This document shows positions 1-9,368 of a DNA stretch of 64,000 nucleotides, piece by piece. Position numbers and translations under genes: made by a program. Origin of the DNA: a virus. Within the stretch, counting starts at the first letter, position 1. Each line of letters starts with the position of its first letter. The stretch is taken from the IMG/VR virus record IMGVR_UViG_3300002835_000103, positions 1 through 64,000 of that record. The stretch is one strand, 5' to 3'. The notes beneath the pieces are model-generated. The model searched no databases, had not been told where the DNA came from, and saw only the letters and a program-made list of their open reading frames with translations.

Positions 1-7
1 CTTTCAT
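1..7 (-). CDS. Start of a gene running off the left edge
   Basis: Only the first two codons (ATG AAA) lie in the window. An AAGGA ribosome-binding site sits 5 bases upstream of the ATG, and a sigma70-type promoter (34-62) lies about 30 bases upstream, which is the layout of the other leftward clusters here. The product cannot be judged. Confidence 0.5.
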
Positions 8-33
8 TTATTTCCTTTTTTTGTTATATGCTT

Positions 34-62
34 ATTATAGCACATTTTGGACAACTTGTCAA
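34..62 (-). promoter_or_regulatory. sigma70-type promoter, leftward
   Basis: On the minus strand: TTGACA (57-62), a 17-bp spacer, and TATAAT (34-39). The core is shared with promoters at 2530 and 4814, including the spacer motif TCCAAAATGTGC. It would drive the gene leaving the left edge. Confidence 0.85.
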
Positions 63-64
63 GC

Positions 65-87
65 AAAAACCCTTTTTCCACAAGGGT
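65..87 (-). terminator. Rho-independent terminator, leftward
   Basis: Read leftward, ACCCTT (82-87) pairs with AAGGGT (69-74) around a 7-base loop, and five T follow. It sits directly upstream of the leftward promoter at 34-62, so it separates transcription units. Confidence 0.65.
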
Positions 88-101
88 CGTATGGTCTTCG
101 G

Positions 102-130
102 TTGACAGGCGATGCGTTTTGTGCTATAAT
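102..130 (+). promoter_or_regulatory. sigma70-type promoter, rightward
   Basis: TTGACA (102-107), a 17-bp spacer and TATAAT (125-130). It forms a divergent pair with the promoter at 34-62 and starts a roughly 420-base leader before the plus-strand gene at 554. Confidence 0.8.
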
Positions 131-191
131 AAGGTTTGTCCGACTGCGTAGGTTGCGTTAAAAATCTGCAATCTCAGAACAGACATAATGC

Positions 192-268
192 GATAATCAG
201 TAAAAGGATTATCCGATAATCAGCGTAGATAATAGAGATAATCGGAGTTGTTGATTATGTTGATTATG
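192..268. repeat. Cluster of GATAATC/GATTATC short repeats
   Basis: GATAATC occurs at 192, 215 and 237, the related GATTATC at 208, and GATTATG at 253 and 262. Two of the copies sit in the longer shared word CGATAATCAG. This density in 77 bases suggests binding sites (iteron-like) rather than chance, although the region is AT-rich. Confidence 0.45.
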
Positions 269-362
269 TTCTAATAATAGATTTTAATAATGATTTAATT
301 AAAACGATTATTATTAAGTATTATCTGATCGTATTCAATCATCTACAGCATTAAATAGCATT

Positions 363-370
363 TATAAATA
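363..370 (+). promoter_or_regulatory. T4-like late promoter box (weak candidate)
   Basis: TATAAATA on the plus strand, 184 bases before the gene at 554. It matches the T4 late consensus, but its distance from the gene makes it less convincing than the box at 513. Confidence 0.35.
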
Positions 371-410
371 GGCTCGATTTATCGTCGATTTATTCTCTAT
401 TATAGCATAG

Positions 411-419
411 TTATACACA
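411..419 (+). promoter_or_regulatory. Possible DnaA box
   Basis: TTATACACA matches TTATNCACA. It is a single site, close to the GATAATC cluster. Such words also arise by chance in AT-rich DNA. Confidence 0.25.
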
Positions 420-512
420 GGTTATCCCCCGATTTAGCCGCTCTATATAGAGTTCGTTATCGAGACGCAGTCGCTGGGTTTATCTTTTCGTATCTTAATG
501 AGTCTATTGTAC

Positions 513-520
513 TATAAATA
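513..520 (+). promoter_or_regulatory. T4-like late promoter box
   Basis: TATAAATA on the plus strand, 34 bases before the ATG at 554. That spacing matches the late boxes seen in front of minus-strand structural genes in this window. Confidence 0.5.
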
Positions 521-553
521 CTATATCCCGAATGTATTAGATTAGGTTAATAG

Positions 554-907
554 ATGTATAATAACGATAATAACGATGATATTCAAGAGAAAATGTCCGG
601 TCTACATAAAGCCGCGATTGCTTCCGCTCATCGTGGAACGCGTCAATCTCCTGAAACTAAAAAGAAAATATCAAAATCATTATCCGGGCAGAAATCAAAT
701 CATTCTGGGAAGAAACACGATAATGACGCTAAGAATCGTATAAGTAATGCCCGTGGTCATTATGATCCGATTAAAGGTCGATCGTGGGTTGTTAACGCTG
801 ATGACAAGACTTATCGCAAAGATCATGCTCCTCAGGGTTTTAAGAAACATAAACGCAAATTCAACGAAGATTATATGTCTTTTCGAGAGTTTATCGAGCG
901 AGATTAA
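554..907 (+). CDS. NUMOD3-like DNA-binding protein
   Basis: 117 residues, very basic. Residues 25-50 (HRGTRQSPETKKKISKSLSG and the GKKH that follows) match the NUMOD3 pattern, a small DNA-binding module normally found beside GIY-YIG or HNH homing endonucleases. The C-terminal half (RSWVV, then a Lys/Arg-rich GFKKHKRKF) resembles the tail of other short phage NUMOD proteins. No nuclease motif is visible, so it is likely a stand-alone DNA-binding protein. It is one of few plus-strand genes. Its 3' end overlaps the convergent gene at 904 by 4 bases. Rightward promoters at 102 and 513 could drive it. Confidence 0.65.
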   Translation: MYNNDNNDDIQEKMSGLHKAAIASAHRGTRQSPETKKKISKSLSGQKSNHSGKKHDNDAKNRISNARGHYDPIKGRSWVVNADDKTYRKDHAPQGFKKHKRKFNEDYMSFREFIERD

Positions 908-1278
908 TCTCTATCTCGCATAGAATCTATCATGCTATTATCTGCCAATTGCTGAAGATTATGTGCATTATCTACGGTCGTTTCCAATGCTTTCCATCTA
1001 TAATCTATTACGTGATTATTATCTAATGATTGTACTGGTTCTGCAGTATATTCCGTATTAGTTTTATTCTTGCTCATTCTTATAACTTCTTTAATCGTTT
1101 CTATATCAGATCTCTCGTTATAAGTACCAGTAAAATATCCTTCTATATTCCGCATTCCTTTTAGATCTCTTGTGGAGTTGACATATAGATAAATTACGTT
1201 AATATCATCTTTATGCTTATCGAGAAATGCATAATATTCCCGCATATTACCCGCTACTACGAATTTTCTTTTAATCAT
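904..1278 (-). CDS. Hypothetical protein
   Basis: 124 residues, soluble and mixed charge, with no motif I recognise. The first part (KFVVAGNMREYYAFLDKH, then INVIYLYVNS) has an alternating pattern suggesting a small alpha/beta fold. It is the last gene of the leftward cluster that begins at the promoter near 2530. Its ATG overlaps the stop of a tiny upstream membrane-peptide gene, and an AAGG sequence lies about 9 bases before the start. Confidence 0.7.
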   Translation of the reverse strand: MIKRKFVVAGNMREYYAFLDKHKDDINVIYLYVNSTRDLKGMRNIEGYFTGTYNERSDIETIKEVIRMSKNKTNTEYTAEPVQSLDNNHVIDYRWKALETTVDNAHNLQQLADNSMIDSMRDRD

Positions 1279-1351
1279 ATGGTGGACCTTTATCCGTGAG
1301 TACGATTGCTATTACCAGAATCATTAATACAATAAACGCTAATTCTGGCAT
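1271..1351 (-). CDS. 26-residue membrane peptide
   Basis: Short reading frame starting MPELAFIVLMILVIAIVLTD, almost entirely one transmembrane helix, then a short polar tail. It starts immediately after the stop of the gene at 1352 and overlaps the next start by 8 bases, so it fits the operon without a gap. Function unknown. Translation is plausible from context but unproven. Confidence 0.45.
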   Translation of the reverse strand: MPELAFIVLMILVIAIVLTDKGPPYD

Positions 1352-1471
1352 TTAGTCTTTACCCAGGAGGATTGCCATAGAACATGCGATCAATGACAGA
1401 ATCAAATAGTAAACGTCGTTCGTGGATATTGCGTATGCTGAAAAGATTATAGCAATAACGTAGAATATCAT
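1352..1471 (-). CDS. 39-residue membrane peptide
   Basis: Encodes two hydrophobic stretches (FYVIAIIFSAYAIS and YYLILSLIACSMAILLG). It starts 1 base after the upstream stop and its own stop abuts the next ATG. This leaves no unexplained gap in the operon and supports a real gene. Function unknown; small membrane proteins are common in early regions of T4-like phages. Confidence 0.5.
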   Translation of the reverse strand: MIFYVIAIIFSAYAISTNDVYYLILSLIACSMAILLGKD

Positions 1472-1472
1472 T

Positions 1473-1652
1473 TTAATCTATACCCAGATTGTGTTGCTTC
1501 TTATAATAGTTGTTTTGACCAAGATCGTGACGAGTCAGTTCAATTACTTTATTCGCGAATTCTTGCAGAATAACATCAGTTGATTCCGAATGATCTAAAG
1601 GATCTCGATCTAATATTGTGACATATTCGTCGATCAGATTATCAAGATTCAT
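1473..1652 (-). CDS. Hypothetical small acidic protein
   Basis: 59 residues from MNLDNLIDEYVTIL. The ATG at 1652 lies inside the last codons of the upstream gene (11-base overlap). An in-frame start at 1685 would overlap much further and is less likely. The protein is acidic at the start and looks helical. No recognised domain. Confidence 0.6.
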   Translation of the reverse strand: MNLDNLIDEYVTILDRDPLDHSESTDVILQEFANKVIELTRHDLGQNNYYKKQHNLGID

Positions 1653-1812
1653 ATTCTTCCTCTTCCAGCATTGAGCAATAATCATTGTACATTACGTCGA
1701 GTCGAATTGGATCTAATTCTTTCAATGCATATCCAAAACTGTATTCAATGCCAGCTAGATTAACCGGCGGATATTCGTCGTTTAACATTTCTAAAAATTC
1801 GTATTTGCTCAT
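1642..1812 (-). CDS. Hypothetical small protein
   Basis: 56 residues beginning MSKYEFLEMLNDEYPPVN and ending in a run of Glu. The ATG at 1812 follows the upstream stop by one base, the coupling seen elsewhere here; another ATG six codons upstream (1830) would overlap the previous gene. No recognised family. Confidence 0.6.
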   Translation of the reverse strand: MSKYEFLEMLNDEYPPVNLAGIEYSFGYALKELDPIRLDVMYNDYCSMLEEEEYES

Positions 1813-1813
1813 A

Positions 1814-2035
1814 TTATGGTCTGCTTTCATAAAATAGACATTCCCAAACTCGTTCGCGAACTACTGTATCTGTCGCTTCTTCGAAGCCTAAATCATTAGC
1901 CAATTGCTCTAATAATCCCTTTACTTGTGACCAGGTCAGATTGGCTCTTTTAGCTAAATCAACAATGCGATATACTTCGTAATCACCTTTTTCGGTGAAC
2001 ATTCCAAATTCTGGTACAACTATATTATTAACCAT
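1814..2035 (-). CDS. Hypothetical small protein
   Basis: 73 residues with a likely helical central part (YRIVDLAKRANLTWSQVKGL) that could form a helix-turn-helix-like unit, but I cannot assign it to a family. It overlaps the upstream gene by 8 bases and is part of the leftward cluster from the promoter at 2530. Confidence 0.6.
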   Translation of the reverse strand: MVNNIVVPEFGMFTEKGDYEVYRIVDLAKRANLTWSQVKGLLEQLANDLGFEEATDTVVRERVWECLFYESRP

Positions 2036-2321
2036 AATGTTCCATTTCGTCTAAAAGATAAACACGTTTGACAAGCGAACTGATGCTTGATGCTGGGTGC
2101 CAGTAATGAGGCATATCTTCTACTGTTGCGTTATATATCTCAAATGCTGTTGGTCTTGTAATAACGGTGCCGTGTGCTCCGAATACGTGTGCCATAGAAT
2201 CCCAGCGTACGTTCACTCTGTGAATAGCATCTTCTGGCTGATGCTCTCTGGAAATAAAATAAGTCTCAGAACCATCTTGCCAGGTCTCTTTAACTACGTA
2301 ATCTTTTCTATCGTCTCTCAT
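2028..2321 (-). CDS. Hypothetical protein
   Basis: 97 residues, no recognised domain. It is soluble, rich in aromatic residues and His (for example DMPHYWHPASS), with an N-terminal YVVKETWQDGSETYFISREH that looks like a beta hairpin. It follows the upstream stop by 1 base and overlaps the next gene by 8 bases. Confidence 0.65.
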   Translation of the reverse strand: MRDDRKDYVVKETWQDGSETYFISREHQPEDAIHRVNVRWDSMAHVFGAHGTVITRPTAFEIYNATVEDMPHYWHPASSISSLVKRVYLLDEMEHYG

Positions 2322-2322
2322 T

Positions 2323-2505
2323 TTAGCAATCCAATTCCAGCATTTCTATGTTAGTTGCGATATCAGTAAGCCCGTCGTCATGCGACTCACGAATTAGATT
2401 CTGTTCTGCATTTTGTGCAAATTCCAGTGTGCTATAAACGCCAGTGTTGTAAAATGCAAATTCGTTATCACCTAGACCCTGTGCTTGTAAAATGTATACT
2501 GTCAT
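2323..2505 (-). CDS. Hypothetical protein, first gene of its cluster
   Basis: 60 residues from MTVYILQAQGLGDNEF. An ATG also occurs at 2523, but it coincides with the predicted transcription start of the promoter at 2530. The ATG at 2505 has AAAAAGGA 6 bases before it, so it is the chosen start. The N-terminal strand pattern (TVYILQAQG and EFAFYNTGVYSTLEFA) suggests a small alpha/beta protein. Function unknown. Confidence 0.7.
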   Translation of the reverse strand: MTVYILQAQGLGDNEFAFYNTGVYSTLEFAQNAEQNLIRESHDDGLTDIATNIEMLELDC

Positions 2506-2529
2506 TTTGTTTTCCTTTTTCATGTCTTA

Positions 2530-2558
2530 ATTATAGCACAATTTGGACAACCTGTCAA
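2530..2558 (-). promoter_or_regulatory. sigma70-type promoter, leftward
   Basis: TTGACA (2553-2558), a 17-bp spacer and TATAAT (2530-2535) on the minus strand. It drives the cluster of nine genes from 2505 down to 904. The predicted start of transcription falls at about 2523. Confidence 0.85.
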
Positions 2559-2560
2559 GC

Positions 2561-2584
2561 AAAAACCCTTTGGAAACTAGGGTT
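2561..2584 (-). terminator. Rho-independent terminator, leftward
   Basis: Read leftward: AACCCT (2579-2584), a loop, AGGGTT (2564-2569), then T-rich. The stem overlaps the stop codon of the GIY-YIG gene at 2583 and lies just upstream of the promoter at 2530-2558. Confidence 0.7.
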
Positions 2585-2885
2585 ACTGCGAGTTCAATGT
2601 TGGTGAGTACTCACCAATTAACTGGCGTTCTAAAGCGTGAGCTGGAGCTTTGCCTCTGACGATCGCAAGTTCTTGTGCAACAAACGCTGAGACCCCGTAG
2701 GACCTGATAGCGTCGCATAGCGTCCAGGACTTGTGCTCAGTCAATGCCCGTCTAATGTGCTTTTGTACGCGGATTTTGAGGTCCTGCTTGCGAAAACCCT
2801 GAGTAATTCCGATGTAGAAATCTCCAGTTGCTACATTTTGTAGCATGTAAACGATATGACGTCTGTCTGATCTTTTCTTTCTCAT
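2583..2885 (-). CDS. GIY-YIG family nuclease-like protein
   Basis: 100 residues forming little more than one GIY-YIG domain. The signature is VYML (12-15) plus DFYIG (22-26). A conserved Glu follows at about 86 in ALERQLI, and the terminal PTLN Asn at about 98, both typical of the catalytic fold, which cuts DNA using a metal ion. No extra DNA-binding module is present, so it may be a free-standing homing-type or repair-type nuclease. It is the only gene between two promoters. The ATG lies 6 bases after the -10 box, so the mRNA would be leaderless. Confidence 0.75.
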   Translation of the reverse strand: MRKKRSDRRHIVYMLQNVATGDFYIGITQGFRKQDLKIRVQKHIRRALTEHKSWTLCDAIRSYGVSAFVAQELAIVRGKAPAHALERQLIGEYSPTLNSQ

Positions 2886-2891
2886 GCCCTA

Positions 2892-2920
2892 ATTATAGCA
2901 CATTTTGGCTAAAAGGACAA
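2892..2920 (-). promoter_or_regulatory. sigma70-type promoter, leftward, weak -35
   Basis: TATAAT (2892-2897) with a 17-bp spacer to TTGTCC (2915-2920) on the minus strand. The -10 flank and part of the spacer (CCAAAATGTGC) match the promoters at 34, 2530 and 4814. The predicted start of transcription coincides with the ATG of the GIY-YIG gene. Confidence 0.7.
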
Positions 2921-2924
2921 GCAA

Positions 2925-2947
2925 TAACCCTTCAGACTTCTGGGGTA
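2925..2947 (-). terminator. Imperfect hairpin, possible leftward terminator
   Basis: Read leftward, ACCCCAGA pairs with TCTG and GGGT across a 2-base loop with a small bulge. The T tail is short and broken, so termination would be weak. Confidence 0.35.
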
Positions 2948-2976
2948 TTGACAAAACACTTAAAAGATGTTAAAAT
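2948..2976 (+). promoter_or_regulatory. sigma70-type promoter, rightward, antisense to the next gene
   Basis: TTGACA (2948-2953), a 17-bp spacer and TAAAAT (2971-2976). It points into the 3' end of the minus-strand gene at 2980. The 32-base core differs at only four positions from the promoter at 4880. Confidence 0.65.
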
Positions 2977-2979
2977 GCA

Positions 2980-3249
2980 CTACTTGACACCAAAGTAATC
3001 CTTGATATCTTTGCGTGCATTAGCCAGCGCAGATACAACAACCGCCTGATCAAATGTCGTGAATGCAGATGATGTGCTGGCATTGGCAACGACACCTACC
3101 GCTTCATTAATCAAGTGATGCAAAAAGGCATCAAAGCATTTATTGTCAACTCCTTGCCAGTCCACATGTCCTGGCCCAGGTCCCCATGGCTCATCTTGCC
3201 ACATAGGCATGTCTGCCTTTTCCATTATTCTTTTTATATTTTCATTCAT
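2980..3249 (-). CDS. Hypothetical protein
   Basis: 89 residues starting MNENIKRIMEKADMPMWQDE. The ATG at 3249 overlaps the upstream stop (ATGA). An alternative ATG lies four codons upstream at 3261. The N-terminal helix followed by a helical domain containing FDAFLHHLINEAVGVV is a style often seen in T4-like aquatic phages, but the function is unknown. It is the last gene of the cluster that starts at the promoter near 4814, and a rightward promoter faces its 3' end. Confidence 0.65.
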   Translation of the reverse strand: MNENIKRIMEKADMPMWQDEPWGPGPGHVDWQGVDNKCFDAFLHHLINEAVGVVANASTSSAFTTFDQAVVVSALANARKDIKDYFGVK

Positions 3250-3557
3250 GCTGTTATCCATTTTTCTTGGTCTTTGAATATGATAGATTCTGCACCATCA
3301 TACTCATCTATTATAAATTCTGTACCGACTGGTACCCACACTACTGTGAGATCGCTAGCTCCGCCAAAATACTGATTGGGATACTTGGCCTCGCAATACA
3401 ATTCAATTGTATCAGGCCTTGTACCATCGCCAACCATTTGAACAATAGCTGGGTCAAATAGCAATTCTGGCACATCTCTATTCCAAGTAGACCAACCTGC
3501 ACCGAAACCCGGCGATACCAGTACAGCAACTCTGCCGTCTCTAATTACTTTTTCCAT
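3246..3557 (-). CDS. Hypothetical protein
   Basis: 103 residues, mostly beta by pattern (VAVLVSPGFGAGWSTW, DLTVVWVPVGTEFIID). No family recognised. It is coupled by ATGA overlap to the next gene and lies 6 bases after the upstream stop. Confidence 0.65.
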   Translation of the reverse strand: MEKVIRDGRVAVLVSPGFGAGWSTWNRDVPELLFDPAIVQMVGDGTRPDTIELYCEAKYPNQYFGGASDLTVVWVPVGTEFIIDEYDGAESIIFKDQEKWITA

Positions 3558-3563
3558 ATCAAA

Positions 3564-4115
3564 TCACTCCTCGATATTATCTTTTTCATACTGATACATA
3601 TTATCGCTGATACCAAACTCGGCATCTAGCTCTTCGGGAATAGTGCGCTCGACATCTTCTGCTGACATTGTGCCGAGTTCATAGTAATCGTCTGAACCAT
3701 TAGAATACATTCCAGCAAAGCACATACCGGACTCATAGTATTTTGCCTCAACCTGAAAACCCATACGTTCTAGCTTTTCATAAAACGGAACAGGTGGTGC
3801 CCATGCTGTATCAAATACTGCCTCAAGCGTATCTGGGTATTCTTCATAGGTATCAACGCTATGGCATTCTGTATCCCATTTCGTTCCCCATTCATTTACG
3901 CAAAAATCATACCAGGATGCGTAACCAAACTTCTCGATGTTTGACTTTGTCAATTTTTCGTCTGTTTCTGACGATGCAATTGATTCGGATAATCCTTTCG
4001 GTACTGGAACAAACTCATTAAAGAATGTACCATTTGTCAAAGCGTCGCGCGCTCGAATAATCATAGCGGGGTCTTCATGAGTGAGGCGAACTGTATTACT
4101 GCACCAATTAGGCAT
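3564..4115 (-). CDS. Api92/YubB-like (DUF1281) protein
   Basis: 183 residues. The N-terminal MPNWCSNTVRLTHED is the hallmark of the family called Api92-like or YubB ferredoxin-like (PNWCxN). These proteins occur on phages and plasmids and have no established role. The C-terminal half is acidic (DDYYELG, EELDAEFG). A clear AAGGA site precedes the ATG by 6 bases. Confidence 0.7.
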   Translation of the reverse strand: MPNWCSNTVRLTHEDPAMIIRARDALTNGTFFNEFVPVPKGLSESIASSETDEKLTKSNIEKFGYASWYDFCVNEWGTKWDTECHSVDTYEEYPDTLEAVFDTAWAPPVPFYEKLERMGFQVEAKYYESGMCFAGMYSNGSDDYYELGTMSAEDVERTIPEELDAEFGISDNMYQYEKDNIEE

Positions 4116-4124
4116 ATCTATTCC

Positions 4125-4394
4125 TTAAATCAAATCAATTTGTACTTGCTTAGCAATCTGAGTAGTATTCATACTCTTTATGCTAACCATCGTTGGTAAT
4201 TCTTTGTTTGCTCTTTCAGCAAAATAGCGATCGCTACTCAAACGCAACAACCCATCCCATGCTGCCTGCTTCAAGCTGTGATGAGCATATACATTGAATA
4301 TATTTCCGACCGTAGTATAGATTCCAAAGCCATCTATAATGACTCGGATCTTTTGTGAATTCTTTAAACCGTCAACCAATGTCTTTGTACGCAT
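4125..4394 (-). CDS. Hypothetical protein
   Basis: 89 residues, basic, starting MRTKTLVDGLKNSQKIRVII. No recognised domain. It has an AAGGA site 7 bases upstream of the ATG and lies between a 23-residue membrane peptide and the Api92-like gene. Confidence 0.65.
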   Translation of the reverse strand: MRTKTLVDGLKNSQKIRVIIDGFGIYTTVGNIFNVYAHHSLKQAAWDGLLRLSSDRYFAERANKELPTMVSIKSMNTTQIAKQVQIDLI

Positions 4395-4403
4395 TATAAT
4401 TCC

Positions 4404-4475
4404 TTAGTCAATATAAAAAAGATGTATTGCTAGACCCAAACAAACACCAATACACATTCCTAATAAAATATTCAT
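4404..4475 (-). CDS. 23-residue membrane peptide
   Basis: MNILLGMCIGVCLGLAIHLF plus a short tail: one transmembrane helix with a Gly-rich face. The start overlaps the upstream stop (TAATG), and the frame fills the gap between its neighbours. Function unknown. Confidence 0.45.
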   Translation of the reverse strand: MNILLGMCIGVCLGLAIHLFYID

Positions 4476-4789
4476 TACCATGCCAACTCCTTGACGGGGA
4501 AACGAATCTTGCCTTCGTAGTCAAGCTGTGACTGCTCGAACTCTGTCAAATAGTCGTCGCCGACAATGTTCCAGCTTAGGATATACTCACGATAGAACTC
4601 GTCGTCACTCTCAATCTTTGGACGTAAACAAAAGATTGCTTTGACAGCCTCTTCATCGCCACCTTTGAAGTTCTTAATAGCGTAATCGCTACCGCCTTTG
4701 GCTTTCCAGTATTGAGGACACTCGCCAGTACCATCCCAATCGTGAGCACCATAATTTTCGTATACTTGAGTTGATATAACTAATTTCAT
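4475..4789 (-). CDS. Conserved phage protein of unknown function
   Basis: 104 residues. The N-terminal part (KLVISTQVYENYGAHDWDG and CPQYWKAKGG) is a pattern I recognise from small conserved proteins of many large phages, with no known function. It is the first gene after the promoter at 4814, with an AAGGA site 7 bases before the ATG and a short leader of about 20 bases. Confidence 0.75.
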   Translation of the reverse strand: MKLVISTQVYENYGAHDWDGTGECPQYWKAKGGSDYAIKNFKGGDEEAVKAIFCLRPKIESDDEFYREYILSWNIVGDDYLTEFEQSQLDYEGKIRFPVKELAW

Positions 4790-4813
4790 ATATTTCCTTC
4801 TTACTATGCCTCA

Positions 4814-4842
4814 ATTATAGCACATTTTGGACAACCTGTCAA
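4814..4842 (-). promoter_or_regulatory. sigma70-type promoter, leftward
   Basis: TTGACA (4837-4842), a 17-bp spacer and TATAAT (4814-4819) on the minus strand, with the same spacer text as the promoters at 34 and 2530. It drives 4789 to 2980. Confidence 0.85.
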
Positions 4843-4879
4843 GCATTCCCGAGCAATTTGTATGGGTACTATAAAACGC

Positions 4880-4908
4880 TTGACAGAACACTTGAACGAT
4901 GTTATAAT
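4880..4908 (+). promoter_or_regulatory. sigma70-type promoter, rightward, antisense to the next gene
   Basis: TTGACA (4880-4885), a 17-bp spacer and TATAAT (4903-4908), a consensus promoter. It points into the 3' end of the minus-strand gene at 4918, and no plus-strand gene follows. Confidence 0.75.
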
Positions 4909-4917
4909 GCAAACCGA

Positions 4918-5205
4918 TTATTCACCTCGATATATTACCAGAGTTTTAACATTAACTTTAACTCCAGTATATATTGGTTCATATATTTGCTGTTCACCAT
5001 CCCATTGATCTTGGTCAAAATCATTATGAGTTTCTTTAATAGGTTTAAATGTTATCTGATTATTAGTATGATGTGATTTGACATATACTGTATTAGGAAA
5101 GATAATCGAGCCAGCTATTTTCTCTGTAGAGATAGTTAATCGTTTGGCTTTAGGATGATAAACACAATCTTTAGTGTTTAATACTAATTCTCTATTATAC
5201 GTCAT
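4918..5205 (-). CDS. Hypothetical protein
   Basis: 95 residues, largely beta by pattern (KRLTISTEKIAGSIIFP, VKVNVKTLVIYRGE). No recognised family. The start overlaps the upstream gene by 11 bases. It is the last gene of the cluster led by the AAA ATPase, and a consensus rightward promoter faces its 3' end. Confidence 0.65.
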   Translation of the reverse strand: MTYNRELVLNTKDCVYHPKAKRLTISTEKIAGSIIFPNTVYVKSHHTNNQITFKPIKETHNDFDQDQWDGEQQIYEPIYTGVKVNVKTLVIYRGE

Positions 5206-5449
5206 AATTGGTTAATCTTTTAATATCTTTGGGTTTGACAATAAGTATATGCTTGTATATTTCGTCTTCGATCTTGAAAGGTAAATCAAGATGAATAGTT
5301 ACTGTGGGGCCTTGTTGTTCGTTGATAACCCTGTCATTACCCACAGAGCCTACCCACCTAACACCTTTGTACACTCCAGTAACTCTATCACCTAATTGAT
5401 ATTTACCAAAGTATCTAATAGATTCAAAATGATCTTTTAGACTAGCCAT
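5195..5449 (-). CDS. Hypothetical protein, possibly SH3-like
   Basis: 84 residues. YQLGDRVTGVYKGVRWVGSV is the type of strand-turn-strand seen in small SH3-like beta barrels, followed by another strand pair (TVTIHLDLPF, HILIVKP). This fold guess is inference. The ATG overlaps the upstream gene by 8 bases. Confidence 0.6.
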   Translation of the reverse strand: MASLKDHFESIRYFGKYQLGDRVTGVYKGVRWVGSVGNDRVINEQQGPTVTIHLDLPFKIEDEIYKHILIVKPKDIKRLTNYDV

Positions 5450-5669
5450 TCTTGAGTTTATTACCTAATGTGAATTTACTTAGAACATCTTTAGCAAGAG
5501 AGAAATCATCGACATCTTCTTCTAGATATATTTTCTCTTTTCTATATGCAGTAATCAATTCATTTGCATATGCAATATCATCAAAACTACAATTTTCAAG
5601 CCAGTGTCTAAATGTCTCATCGTCTGCTTTCAATAAGAACATTAAATTTCCCATATCTCGGTCTGTCAT
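5442..5669 (-). CDS. Hypothetical small acidic protein
   Basis: 75 residues from MTDRDMGNLMFLLKADDE. The ATG at 5669 lies one base after the ATPase stop; a GTG three codons upstream is a less likely start. It is helical and acidic. Being coupled to the ATPase, it might act with it, but there is no direct evidence. Confidence 0.6.
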   Translation of the reverse strand: MTDRDMGNLMFLLKADDETFRHWLENCSFDDIAYANELITAYRKEKIYLEEDVDDFSLAKDVLSKFTLGNKLKNG

Positions 5670-5670
5670 A

Positions 5671-6579
5671 TTAAGCACCTTGTGTCAATACATACTTAGC
5701 CAATTGTTTCCAATCGCCACCTTCTGCACGAATCTTTGTCGTTGAGATTAACGAACGCAAACTCAAGTTCTCAATGCTGTTGCCAATTGTCTTGATGAAT
5801 GCAATTGCGTCAGCTTTATGTGATGTTGCAAACTCTGGCATAAACTCTGAATCGCCAATCAACACTTCCATGCGCTCAATCTTTTGTGCTTGTGTCATGC
5901 TCAAGTCAACGCACATTGCACGACTCTTAACAGCTTGGTCTACACGATCAAGATCCATGTTCGAGATAAACACAATGCTACCTGTAAACTTGAAACTGCG
6001 GGGCAGATCGTCATCTTTCATGTCTGCATTCCAGTTGATCCAGCGTTCGCCGTATGAGTCAAGTGCACCCTTGAGCAAGTTAAGAGCAACTGGGTCTTTG
6101 AGCACGCTATCGCAGTCATCAAATACTAATACTTGACCATTGCCTTCGAACAATGTGCGATACAGACCTTTAGCAGTACTGTAACCTTTTACAATGCGAA
6201 AACTCTTTTCACTATTAATGCGAGCACCTTCTTCGAACTGTGCTAAGTCTGTGGTGTCAATCAAGTTCTGTGCTTTGAGTGATTTCAAAACAGTATGTGT
6301 CTTACCCAAGCCACCTTGGCCTGTGATAATTGCCGATGCGATAGTCTTTTTAGCAACCATTGAGACCATTTGTGCAACAAAGTCAAAACGCTTGTTGATA
6401 CCAAATTCGTCAACCTTGGGCTGGGTATTTACAGTACCGCTTACTGGTTCTACTTGCAAACCTAATTTAGCAATCTGGTCGCGCACATAAGATTCGTGAC
6501 GTGATCTTGAGACCATTTTGCCATCAACAAAACCTTCGAAACGATTCTTTGCTTTGTTGAAAATTACTTTTACACGCAT
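5671..6579 (-). CDS. AAA-type P-loop ATPase
   Basis: 302 residues. Walker A is GQGGLGKT (87-94) and Walker B is VLVFDDCDS (150-158), followed by a FTGSIVFISN strand that fits a sensor-1 position. The first 80 residues form a separate short basic domain (KNRFEGFVDGKMVSRSRHES). It hydrolyses ATP by family, but the substrate is unknown. An AGGAG site precedes the ATG. Two leftward promoters and an array of TTTGCACA words lie upstream, so it appears tightly regulated. It leads a four-gene cluster down to 4918. Confidence 0.8.
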   Translation of the reverse strand: MRVKVIFNKAKNRFEGFVDGKMVSRSRHESYVRDQIAKLGLQVEPVSGTVNTQPKVDEFGINKRFDFVAQMVSMVAKKTIASAIITGQGGLGKTHTVLKSLKAQNLIDTTDLAQFEEGARINSEKSFRIVKGYSTAKGLYRTLFEGNGQVLVFDDCDSVLKDPVALNLLKGALDSYGERWINWNADMKDDDLPRSFKFTGSIVFISNMDLDRVDQAVKSRAMCVDLSMTQAQKIERMEVLIGDSEFMPEFATSHKADAIAFIKTIGNSIENLSLRSLISTTKIRAEGGDWKQLAKYVLTQGA

Positions 6580-6610
6580 ACTAACTCCTGTTTTTGTTTG
6601 CTATATATCT

Positions 6611-6639
6611 ATTATAATTGCTTTTGCACATTTGCACAA
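6611..6639 (-). promoter_or_regulatory. Proximal leftward promoter of the ATPase cluster
   Basis: TATAAT (6611-6616) with a 17-bp spacer to TTGTGC (6634-6639) on the minus strand. The -35 and spacer are made of two tandem TTTGCACA words, so a bound regulator would cover the promoter. Confidence 0.55.
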
Positions 6640-6724
6640 GCAAAGACCCTTTTGGCTTTATGGGTTCTTTTGATTTGCACAAATTTACTTTTCATCATGT
6701 CATAATTATATGTGCATTTGCACA
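6623..6724. repeat. Four TTTGCACA sites, candidate operators
   Basis: TTTGCACA occurs at 6623-6630, 6631-6638, 6674-6681 and 6717-6724. The last forms a palindrome TGTGCATTTGCACA (6711-6724) that fills the spacer of the distal promoter. Four exact 8-base copies in about 100 bases, each over or beside a promoter element, point to a regulator binding site. Confidence 0.6.
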
Positions 6725-6733
6725 GTTTGTCAA
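6705..6733 (-). promoter_or_regulatory. Distal leftward promoter of the ATPase cluster
   Basis: TTGACA (6728-6733), a 17-bp spacer and TATAAT (6705-6710) on the minus strand. The spacer contains the palindrome TGTGCATTTGCACA. The leader to the ATG at 6579 would be about 120 bases. Confidence 0.75.
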
Positions 6734-6776
6734 GCGTTTTTAGTCAAAAAGATTCGAATTTCTGCTAAAAAAGTGC

Positions 6777-6805
6777 TTGACAGGAGATCAAAAAGAATAT
6801 ATAAT
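6777..6805 (+). promoter_or_regulatory. sigma70-type promoter of the plus-strand operon
   Basis: TTGACA (6777-6782), a 17-bp spacer and TATAAT (6800-6805). It lies 35 bases before the first plus-strand gene at 6840 and diverges from the ATPase promoters. Confidence 0.85.
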
Positions 6806-6839
6806 CGAGGTAATATTATCTACAATATAGGGATTCTAC

Positions 6840-7007
6840 ATGGATATTCAGCCAAAAGACATAAGTAAAGGTCATTTTTATATCAGTTTGATTAAAAGTG
6901 GAATGCGAATTATAGCAGGTGCATACTTAATCACGGGTGATTTTGTTATTGCCGGTCTATTGTTAATTACTGCAGAACTATTGGGCATTCTTGAGGAGTT
7001 GGTATGA
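6840..7007 (+). CDS. 55-residue membrane protein
   Basis: Starts MDIQPKDISKGHFYISLIKS, followed by two hydrophobic segments (MRIIAGAYLITGDFVIAGLL and the following LITAELLGIL). An AGGG site lies about 9 bases upstream, and the stop overlaps the next ATG (ATGA). It resembles short membrane proteins found in T4-like aquatic phages. Function unknown. It leads the rightward operon from the promoter at 6777. Confidence 0.65.
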   Translation: MDIQPKDISKGHFYISLIKSGMRIIAGAYLITGDFVIAGLLLITAELLGILEELV

Positions 7008-7195
7008 ACAATAACGACACAACAAAACAACGCATGGAAGAATTAATGGCTCCTGTAGAACAACAGATTTTGATGTGCGATAATAGAGAAGATATACTAA
7101 TGATGGCATGTGCTATGATGCAACGTACTCATGAGATATTTGTAAATGAATTGGGTGAGGATGGTGCTAAAATAATGTATGAAGATTATGTATAA
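7004..7195 (+). CDS. Hypothetical small acidic protein
   Basis: 63 residues, helical and acidic (MEELMAPVEQQILMCDNRED), Met-rich. A strong GAGGAG site lies 7 bases before the ATG. It is coupled by 4- and 8-base overlaps to its neighbours. No recognised family. Confidence 0.7.
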   Translation: MNNNDTTKQRMEELMAPVEQQILMCDNREDILMMACAMMQRTHEIFVNELGEDGAKIMYEDYV

Positions 7196-7355
7196 AGATT
7201 CTAAATTTAGATTGTGGGTTTTTAGATTATGGCATGAAAATCTAGAAGAAAGATTCCTACACAAAGAAGAACAAATAACTATTCAAGAATATTGGGAAAA
7301 ATATAAATGGTGGATAAAAAGAGAATATCGACATCAAACACGAAAGAACAAATAA
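7188..7355 (+). CDS. Hypothetical basic Trp-rich protein
   Basis: 55 residues beginning MYKDSKFRLWVFRLWHENLE, with a second Trp-rich stretch EYWEKYKWWIKREYRH. It starts inside the end of the upstream gene and its stop overlaps the next ATG (TAATG), which argues for translation. The amphipathic basic helix could bind membrane or nucleic acid; this is a guess. Confidence 0.6.
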   Translation: MYKDSKFRLWVFRLWHENLEERFLHKEEQITIQEYWEKYKWWIKREYRHQTRKNK

Positions 7356-7558
7356 TGAGTTTTAGAAATCAAATCATCGATGCAACCGCAGCACGATACA
7401 CCGCAGATATTGAACAGTTACGAATTGACGCTGAAGTATTATTACAACATACTGTGGGTGTGCCAGGTTCATCTAGCACCTGTGCATCATTCGATGCCAT
7501 AGTAACACAGATTGCTTATTTGGAATCGAAGCTCGCATCTTTGTCATTATTTAAATGA
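7355..7558 (+). CDS. Conserved small phage protein of unknown function
   Basis: 67 residues from MSFRNQIIDATAARYTADIE. I take the ATG at 7355, which overlaps the upstream stop. A longer frame from 7307 would run through the gene at 7188. The pattern of an N-terminal helix plus a VGVPG turn and a second helix is typical of a small protein I associate with T4-like aquatic phages. Function unknown. Confidence 0.65.
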   Translation: MSFRNQIIDATAARYTADIEQLRIDAEVLLQHTVGVPGSSSTCASFDAIVTQIAYLESKLASLSLFK

Positions 7559-7827
7559 AAATCAAAGACGGAGAGACATTTGAACAATGGTCTGAAAGAG
7601 TCAGACAATTTGAATTCGGTTATGCCATGCAAGCATTGGCACACGGAACGCCCGCTGACACAATACTAGAACAGATGTCTATTCGCATCACAAATAAAAT
7701 GAAACATTATATTCTCATTTGCATCAAAGTACCTTACAGTTATGATGTGAATAAAAATAAACTTGAATACGAACAAATAATGAAACTGATATCTCCGGTT
7801 GCGGATCATGTCACTTGGGATAATTAA
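7555..7827 (+). CDS. Hypothetical protein
   Basis: 90 residues (MKIKDGETFEQWSERVRQFE), predicted alpha-helical at the start and alpha/beta later. The ATG overlaps the upstream stop (ATGA). No recognised domain. Confidence 0.7.
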   Translation: MKIKDGETFEQWSERVRQFEFGYAMQALAHGTPADTILEQMSIRITNKMKHYILICIKVPYSYDVNKNKLEYEQIMKLISPVADHVTWDN

Positions 7828-7829
7828 AA

Positions 7830-7919
7830 ATGAAACACACAATTTATTACGTTTTAATCGTGGCAGTATCCACAGCTGCTGTCGCAGTGCAGATACTTTA
7901 TAACTTACACAGAGTTTAG
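7830..7919 (+). CDS. 29-residue membrane peptide
   Basis: MKHTIYYVLIVAVSTAAVAV plus a short tail, a single transmembrane helix with a basic N-terminus. It starts 2 bases after the upstream stop. Its last 15 bases overlap the convergent gene at 7905. Confidence 0.45.
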   Translation: MKHTIYYVLIVAVSTAAVAVQILYNLHRV

Positions 7920-8225
7920 GCCTTCTAACTCTCGATCTGATTCTGTTATTACCAGAGTCGTGTTGGGCATTATCTTTAGCAATGCCTTTTGTATCTCATC
8001 TAAAGACTTGCCTTGAATTAAAAATGCTTCAGGGTTCAGAGTCCATAAGTATACTTGATCTCCGTGATGCTCAACTCGGCATTCTATATACTTTTCCTGT
8101 TCACTGGGAGGAGTAATCATTTTATATTGTTGCATGTCTTTATTAGTTACCGCTCTAATAAAGCCAATTGCATTCCAAATTATCCACGCATAAAATATGC
8201 ATTCAAGTAGTTGTTGTATTGTCAT
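7905..8225 (-). CDS. Hypothetical membrane-anchored protein
   Basis: 106 residues with an N-terminal hydrophobic segment (LLECIFYAWIIWNAIGFI) and a soluble C-terminal domain with beta pattern (YIECRVEHHGDQVYLWTL, MPNTTLVITE). No recognised family. It lies 6 bases downstream of an RCC1 adhesin gene and is the last gene of that leftward run. Its 3' end overlaps the plus-strand operon. Confidence 0.6.
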   Translation of the reverse strand: MTIQQLLECIFYAWIIWNAIGFIRAVTNKDMQQYKMITPPSEQEKYIECRVEHHGDQVYLWTLNPEAFLIQGKSLDEIQKALLKIMPNTTLVITESDRELEGLNSV

Positions 8226-8231
8226 ATGATA

Positions 8232-9368
8232 TTAATCACTGATGGCCATGGTGTGTTGACCACCTGCATCAACCGTTGACCAAGTTGTTAAAGCGCCAAC
8301 CTGTACTGGACTAGATACATATACAGTTGCGCTATTACCTATACCTAATCGACCGGAGCTGCTGTTACCCCACGCCCACATGGTTCCATCTGTTTTAATA
8401 GCCATGTTGTGATAACTACCTGAAGCAATATTTAACCAATTAGTTAATGCGCCAACCTGTTTTGGGCTTGAATAGTTTGTGGTATTGCCTAATCCTAATT
8501 GCCCATTTGAATTGCGACCACCCAATCCCCACATGGTACCATCTGTTTTAATGGCCATGCTATGATAACTACCTGAAGCAATTGTTAACCAAGTTGTTAG
8601 GGCACCAACCTGTACAGGACTAGATCTATATGTTAGATTGCCTAATCCTAATTGCCCATGTGGATTCATACCCCACGACCACATGGTACCATCGGTTTTG
8701 ATGGCCAAGCTGTGATTATAACCTGCAGAAATTCGTAACCAAGTAGTTAAAGCACCAATCTGTACTGGACTAGATATATTTGTAGTATTTCCTAGACCCA
8801 GTTGTCCCTGTGCATTATATCCCCACGACCACATAGTACCATCTGTTTTGACGGCCATGCTGTATTGAAAACCTGCATCAATTTTTGACCATGTGGTTAA
8901 TGCACCAACCTGTACTGGACTAGATATATTTGTAGTATTTCCTAGACCTAATTTACCGCTGCTACCATTACCCCATGACCACATGGTGCCATCTGTTTTA
9001 ATAGCCATGCTATGATAAGTGCCTCCAGCAATACTTGACCAAGTTGTTAGGGCACCAACCTGTACTGGACTAGATATATCTGTAGTATTACCTAAACCTA
9101 ATTGGCCGTTTCCGCCTGAACCCCATGACCACAAGGTACCATCTGTTTTGACTGCCATGGTGTGCTGGCTACCAGCAAAAACTGTTGACCATGTACCTAA
9201 AGCACCAACCTGTACTGGACTAGATATATCTGTAGTATTACCTAAACCCAATCTGCCATAGCTATTTCTACCCCATGACCACAAGTAAAATTCTGGTACA
9301 GGAACCGGAGGATCCCATGTCTGCACATTCATTCCACCAAGAGCAAAGTTAACATTTGTAATTTGCAT
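8232..9368 (-). CDS. RCC1-type seven-bladed beta-propeller adhesin
   Basis: 378 residues. After a 17-residue tag (MQITNVNFALGGMNVQT) and a proline linker come seven roughly 50-residue RCC1 repeats, each with the core KTDGT(M/L)WSWG...GQLGLGNTT...SSPVQVGALTTW. Seven repeats predict a closed propeller. Blades 5 and 6 share the segment IASGSYH, suggesting a recent duplication. RCC1 repeats in phages are found in tail or fibre proteins, so receptor binding is the likely role. It stands apart from the main array, behind a glycine-rich and a GIY-YIG gene. No Shine-Dalgarno sequence precedes the ATG, only an A-rich leader. Confidence 0.85.
   Translation of the reverse strand: MQITNVNFALGGMNVQTWDPPVPVPEFYLWSWGRNSYGRLGLGNTTDISSPVQVGALGTWSTVFAGSQHTMAVKTDGTLWSWGSGGNGQLGLGNTTDISSPVQVGALTTWSSIAGGTYHSMAIKTDGTMWSWGNGSSGKLGLGNTTNISSPVQVGALTTWSKIDAGFQYSMAVKTDGTMWSWGYNAQGQLGLGNTTNISSPVQIGALTTWLRISAGYNHSLAIKTDGTMWSWGMNPHGQLGLGNLTYRSSPVQVGALTTWLTIASGSYHSMAIKTDGTMWGLGGRNSNGQLGLGNTTNYSSPKQVGALTNWLNIASGSYHNMAIKTDGTMWAWGNSSSGRLGIGNSATVYVSSPVQVGALTTWSTVDAGGQHTMAISD

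Follow-up and report, generated by a model that had tools for sequence, protein, structure and literature searches.

The promoter early stem-loop cassettes (PeSLs) of T4-like phages have, as far as is known, one promoter. They are the closest known kind to the intergenic units described here (Arbiol 2010 and Comeau 2014, as referenced in PMC4177764 and PMC4503421). In engineered E. coli, an antisense promoter combined with a terminator at the end of a gene represses the upstream gene (PMC4731013), and head-on collision of polymerases is described in PMC13082048, on the basis of Wang 2023 and Ju 2019, as a prevalent way in which convergent transcription is terminated in E. coli. Once it has terminated, bacterial polymerase often starts again, usually in the antisense direction (PMC6978322), and does so at the nearest promoter (PMC11347151). 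Antisense promoters in bacteria have been described as poorly conserved (PMC6978322).

The window analysed here is the first 64 kb (64,000 nucleotides) of an 82,535-base freshwater phage contig, the DNA of which gave no match in searches of phage and plasmid collections. Leftward operons of short genes make up most of positions 1-6600. By eye, the many 150-nt repeats in the ORF at 8232-9368 and across 24-34 kb are RCC1-like; 11 tRNA genes are located towards the contig's right end (13101-18534 of L140, its remaining 18.5 kb).

A first-pass annotation had pointed out two near-copy promoters on the plus strand of this region (A and B in Table 1), each facing the 3' end of a minus-strand gene and having no plus-strand gene downstream. 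Their coordinates and strand were borne out, as was their similarity: 28 of 32 positions are equal, the spacer is 17 bp in both, and promoter B ends 3 nt, and promoter A 9 nt, from the stop codon of the minus-strand ORF that it faces. Neither of these ORFs has internal stops in relatives; third-position changes are in excess in the ORF facing B (37 of 66), and the 7 changes in the ORF facing A are too few for such an excess to show. Both are probably real genes. No convincing plus-strand gene was found downstream of either promoter, where the ORFs on that strand (up to 86 aa) overlap the minus-strand genes and look incidental. A plus-strand peptide or small RNA as the product of these promoters was rejected in the absence of a convincing ORF or terminator. 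A further promoter-like site on the plus strand, at 5078-5106, sits within the gene facing promoter A.

Table 1. Window coordinates of the promoters, hairpins and genes at the operon boundaries discussed in the text.
Feature	Position	Strand	Remarks
Third reverse promoter, back-to-back kind	102..130	+	Counterpart in relatives faces the 3' end of a 124-aa gene
Leftward promoter of next operon	2530..2558	-	12/12; own ACCCT...AGGGT terminator-like hairpin upstream
GIY-YIG endonuclease-like gene	2583..2885	-	Pfam GIY-YIG; flanked by the 2948 cassette and another terminator-promoter unit
Leftward promoter of the cassette	2892..2920	-	-35 decayed (TTGTCC-17-TATAAT); precedes the GIY-YIG gene
Hairpin ACCC(CAG-NNNN-CTGAA)GGGT, then TATTGC	2927..2947	-	Weak, intrinsic-terminator-like, predicted to end the leftward operon; fold z -0.33
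Antisense promoter B	2948..2976	+	TTGACA-17-TAAAAT, 11/12, TG before -10; predicted start near 2983
Last gene of leftward operon facing promoter B	2980..3261	-	93 aa, function unassigned
First gene under the cassette's leftward promoter	4475..4789	-	104 aa
Leftward promoter of next operon	4814..4842	-	12/12, spacer with TTGTCCAAAATGTGC
Short TACCC...GGG hairpin between back-to-back promoters	4848..4868	-	From sequence and alignment
Antisense promoter A	4880..4908	+	TTGACA-17-TATAAT, 12/12, TG before -10; predicted start near 4915
Last gene of leftward operon facing promoter A	4918..5205	-	95 aa, function unassigned

Going beyond the first-pass annotation, the sequences show that both promoters belong to cassettes, common to relatives, of which a terminator-like hairpin and the next operon's promoter are further parts. 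Along the operon, the stop codon comes first, followed by the antisense promoter, an ACCC...GGGT hairpin that has a short T-rich tail, and the next operon's promoter. The hairpin thus lies between back-to-back promoters, with 27-43 bp between their -35 boxes. Every part is intact in the cassette at 4814-4908. We infer that the hairpins are terminators; the region 2912-2980 folds no better than shuffles, indicating that they are weak. Promoter-like sites are strongly enriched in positions 1-8000 of the window, with 9 sites of at least 11/12 (0.5 expected from 200 shuffles), 7 sites of 12/12 (0.01 expected) and 3 strict back-to-back pairs (none in the shuffles).

Reverse and leftward promoters also stand back to back near 34/102 and 6705/6777, and another such reverse promoter is found ~0.75 kb left of the window, in a near-identical contig. 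Similar copies within the genome are A, B and, as related boundaries, those near 102 and to the left of the window. The antisense part is present at only some operon boundaries, and the 2530 boundary lacks one. The pairs at 34/102 and 6705/6777 had been said to serve plus-strand genes; this is correct for 6777-6805 and only loosely so for 102-130, which is separated from a NUMOD3 gene by ~420 nt of partly conserved non-coding DNA. The leftward promoters at 34-62, 2530-2558 and 4814-4842 have a common spacer TTGTCCAAAatGTGC with an overlapping palindrome-like TTGACAnnTTGTCCAA, as if a common regulator bound them. Repeated TTTGCACA elements surround the 6705 promoter (window 6602-6733), and a perfect palindrome (ATACAGC-TAAAT-GCTGTAT) is located within a promoter at contig positions 76360-76388; both are candidate operators.

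The partly conserved non-coding stretch downstream of promoter 102-130 (window 131-553) is common to L018, L021 and L023 and contains DnaA-box-like TTATNCACA/TTATCCACA sequences (window 411), which are in tandem in L021 and L023. This stretch may act as a replication origin or give rise to a non-coding RNA. In L018 and L021, only non-coding DNA, and no NUMOD3 gene, separates the counterpart of 102-130 from the 3' end of the 124-aa gene that it faces. A reverse promoter followed by a conserved TTCGAACA..GGGGGTGGACGGCG stretch is found in L012 (near 12836, ~0.72 kb left of window position 1), L032, L052, L201 and L373. In the last four of these, 3-6 of the 4-7 DnaA-box-like sites of the locus fall in the 450 nt after the stretch, and the corresponding 450 nt of L012 and L660 hold no DnaA-box-like sites. 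The stretch is a possible phage origin or RNA, and could encode a short peptide, MFEHSGGGRR.

Relatives were gathered by searches with two window proteins, which yielded more than 100 loci. Alignment blocks between the window and these relatives break at the cassette, and in close relatives the same cassette abuts at least four different genes (93-aa, 95-aa, 104-aa and DUF1281-like), with about -1 to +11 nt between the -10 and the stop codon. The 2875-2978 cassette of L020, L021 and L022 directly follows the DUF1281-like gene, which in the window is two genes away; in the same three loci and in L104, a 104-aa gene takes the place that the 95-aa gene has in the window, ahead of the 4784-4914 cassette. 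The 2948-type cassette is uninterrupted in L020-L022, where a relative of the window's GIY-YIG gene is found elsewhere and in the opposite orientation. In the distant L109 and L116, a cassette with the same layout and a different spacer abuts the stop codon of an AAA-like gene (homologue of 5671-6579), and at this place a promoter and a similar hairpin are present in L113, L115, L119 and L127 without the antisense part. The first-pass annotation had proposed checking whether related phages keep the promoters, and they do so while the facing gene changes. Among 79 nonredundant sources, antisense promoters of at least 11/12 occur in 31 of 685 co-directional intergenic regions, compared to 1.6 in shuffles; these 31 are not independent events, as several are orthologous, and many lie within ~10 nt of a stop codon, while some are far from one and may serve reverse-strand features.

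Alignment of 19 sequences from four positions showed that the -35, the bases adjoining the -10 (including the TG) and the -10 itself, except for one A/T position, are invariant, with the gap constant at 17 bp and the middle of the spacer variable. For sites of the 4880 type (class A) and the 2948 type (class B), changes were counted by parsimony in eight relatives, assuming no recombination within the cassette. The hexamers and TG of class B have 1 change (TATAAT/TAAAAT) in 14 sites, where 13.4 are expected from fourfold sites (Poisson P about 2e-5, gene tree of eight relatives); the rest of the spacer has 0.53 changes per site, the hairpin loop 1.33, and the 5' stem arm of the hairpin none, the stem arms being constant and the loop variable in relatives. 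In class A, the entire 29-bp antisense element has 2 changes compared to 15.7 expected, and the adjacent sense spacer has 0.47 per site. The class A spacer is as conserved as its hexamers, which would be superfluous for a plain promoter and may reflect a bound regulator. The antisense -35 is invariant even in cassettes with a decayed sense -35 (TTGTCC, TTGTGC, TTGACG). As expected of sigma-70 promoters (17 ± 1 bp), the hexamers are 17 bp apart, and they are more conserved than the spacer, or equally so in class A. Promoter changes far below the neutral expectation argue against the earlier suggestion that these sites are relics, and it is very likely that 2948-2976 and 4880-4908 are real antisense promoters maintained by selection.

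The promoter core (ATTWTAACATC-N-TT..A......TGTCAA) was also sought in a viral collection. Among the matches listed, 34 of the 49 classified in other phages directly precede a gene on the same strand and 2 abut an opposite-strand stop, whereas 12 of the 16 in this clade abut such a stop. The core thus behaves as an ordinary promoter elsewhere, and is differently placed in this clade. The combination of ATTATA-17-TGTCAA with an adjacent TACCC...GGGT was found in at least 120 viral stretches, compared to 6 for the same motif with a 14-bp spacer, but was rejected as evidence of antisense use because most of these are ordinary promoters behind the terminator of an upstream gene. Scans for back-to-back promoters gave 30 of 184 pairs with an arm abutting an opposite stop, according to simple and noisy ORF calls, and the abutting pairs that also carry a TACCC hairpin are, by eye, from this clade. 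Bacterial genomes contain 92 scattered matches to the core, mostly in gut Clostridia as judged by title.

We tentatively propose that, in the shuffled operon-boundary cassette of which the antisense promoters are standard parts, convergent polymerase would damp the upstream operon; as a whole mechanism, this is a possibility that we favour with some hesitation. Host RNA polymerase would start at about 2983 and 4915 from these sigma-70-type promoters, travel rightward into the tail of the operon ending there, and meet the leftward polymerase head-on at the operon end. The encounter would reinforce the weak intrinsic terminator, prevent read-through from reaching the next leftward promoter, and damp the upstream operon, whatever its last gene. 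The antisense promoter may be loaded by polymerase that has come free at the hairpin. That such promoters could compete with leftward transcription had been suggested before, and is consistent with all the evidence presented here. With somewhat more reserve, we suggest that this may be a natural mobile boundary cassette, composed of an antisense promoter, a weak terminator and the next promoter, in which head-on or recycled polymerase would insulate neighbouring operons for any genes.

Boundary reinforcement has a close rival, from which it is not cleanly separated, in which the antisense promoter serves its neighbour: terminated polymerase would remain on the DNA and re-start at the closest promoter, whichever way this points, or divergent initiation would supply negative supercoiling to the sense promoter, with the RNA as a by-product. 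We consider this rather unlikely, although the hairpin between strong, closely spaced back-to-back promoters would suit it, as would the tendency of polymerase to re-start antisense (PMC6978322) and at the nearest promoter (PMC11347151), and no particular target gene would be necessary. However, the published antisense sites near terminators have an atypical -35 (PMC6978322), which is perfect here, and some boundaries function without a reverse promoter. A different view of the mobility of the cassette is that units once serving reverse-strand genes were duplicated and shuffled, leaving the reverse promoter as a functionless remnant. The cassettes clearly move between genes, some back-to-back pairs in the same region serve plus-strand genes (6777-6805), and A and B have no plus-strand gene downstream; yet the slow evolution of the promoter positions, far below the neutral rate in relatives, and an antisense -35 that is invariant beside a decayed sense -35 disfavour such hitchhiking and make it unlikely.

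The exchange of facing genes bears on the suggestion, made in the first-pass annotation, of antisense RNAs aimed at particular genes. The predicted starts are a few nt from the stop codon, so a dedicated RNA from each promoter would overlap the 3' end of the mRNA and might regulate the facing gene, but conserved pairing with one target is not seen, as the facing gene varies while the promoter stays, and neither a strong terminator nor a conserved RNA body was found downstream. Because the facing gene is not constant, gene-specific antisense RNA is improbable, and the best fit is an effect at the boundary that does not depend on the target. It is more doubtful still that the element is no promoter, and that a conserved 3'-UTR RNA structure or protein-binding site on the sense strand is promoter-like by chance. 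Class A is conserved through its spacer too, and the inverted repeat of its two -35 boxes folds well (z -3.0); however, the invariant columns of the 19 sequences are the -35, TG and -10 at a constant 17-bp gap with a variable middle, class B folds no better than shuffles, and the core drives genes in other phages. Sense-strand RNA structure was rejected as the conserved feature on these grounds.

Bacterial antisense promoters are often dismissed as noise, being rarely conserved, but this set is under clear purifying selection and its placing is fixed, beside terminator-like hairpins and ahead of changing genes. If active, the promoters would show that convergent transcription serves phages as a general element for insulation or damping, and the engineered terminator/antisense-promoter pairs would have an equivalent in nature.

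Like PeSLs, as far as these are described in the sources cited above, the cassette is a small intergenic unit with a stem-loop and a host-type promoter (sigma-70 here), has several similar copies per genome, and borders regions of gene swapping, with flanking genes that differ between relatives. Compared with PeSLs by the titles of those sources, it adds a conserved antisense promoter beyond the stem-loop, pointing into the operon that has ended. The convergent polymerases of Wang 2023 and Ju 2019, as presented in PMC13082048, likewise stop at hairpins near operon ends, but there a convergent gene supplies the opposing polymerase, which in the phage would come from a gene-less promoter. The re-initiation sites of Harden 2020 (PMC6978322) resemble the phage promoters in that antisense starts lie close to intrinsic terminators; those are E. 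coli and B. subtilis sites with an atypical -35, whereas the phage promoters have the full consensus and are under purifying selection. In the pairs of Brophy and Voigt (PMC4731013), the 3' end of a gene is followed by an antisense promoter and an adjoining unidirectional terminator, much as here, and damping would be expected in both cases. Their pairs are engineered and have the terminator between the gene and the promoter, whereas the phage cassette is natural and conserved, and has its antisense promoter between the stop codon and the hairpin.
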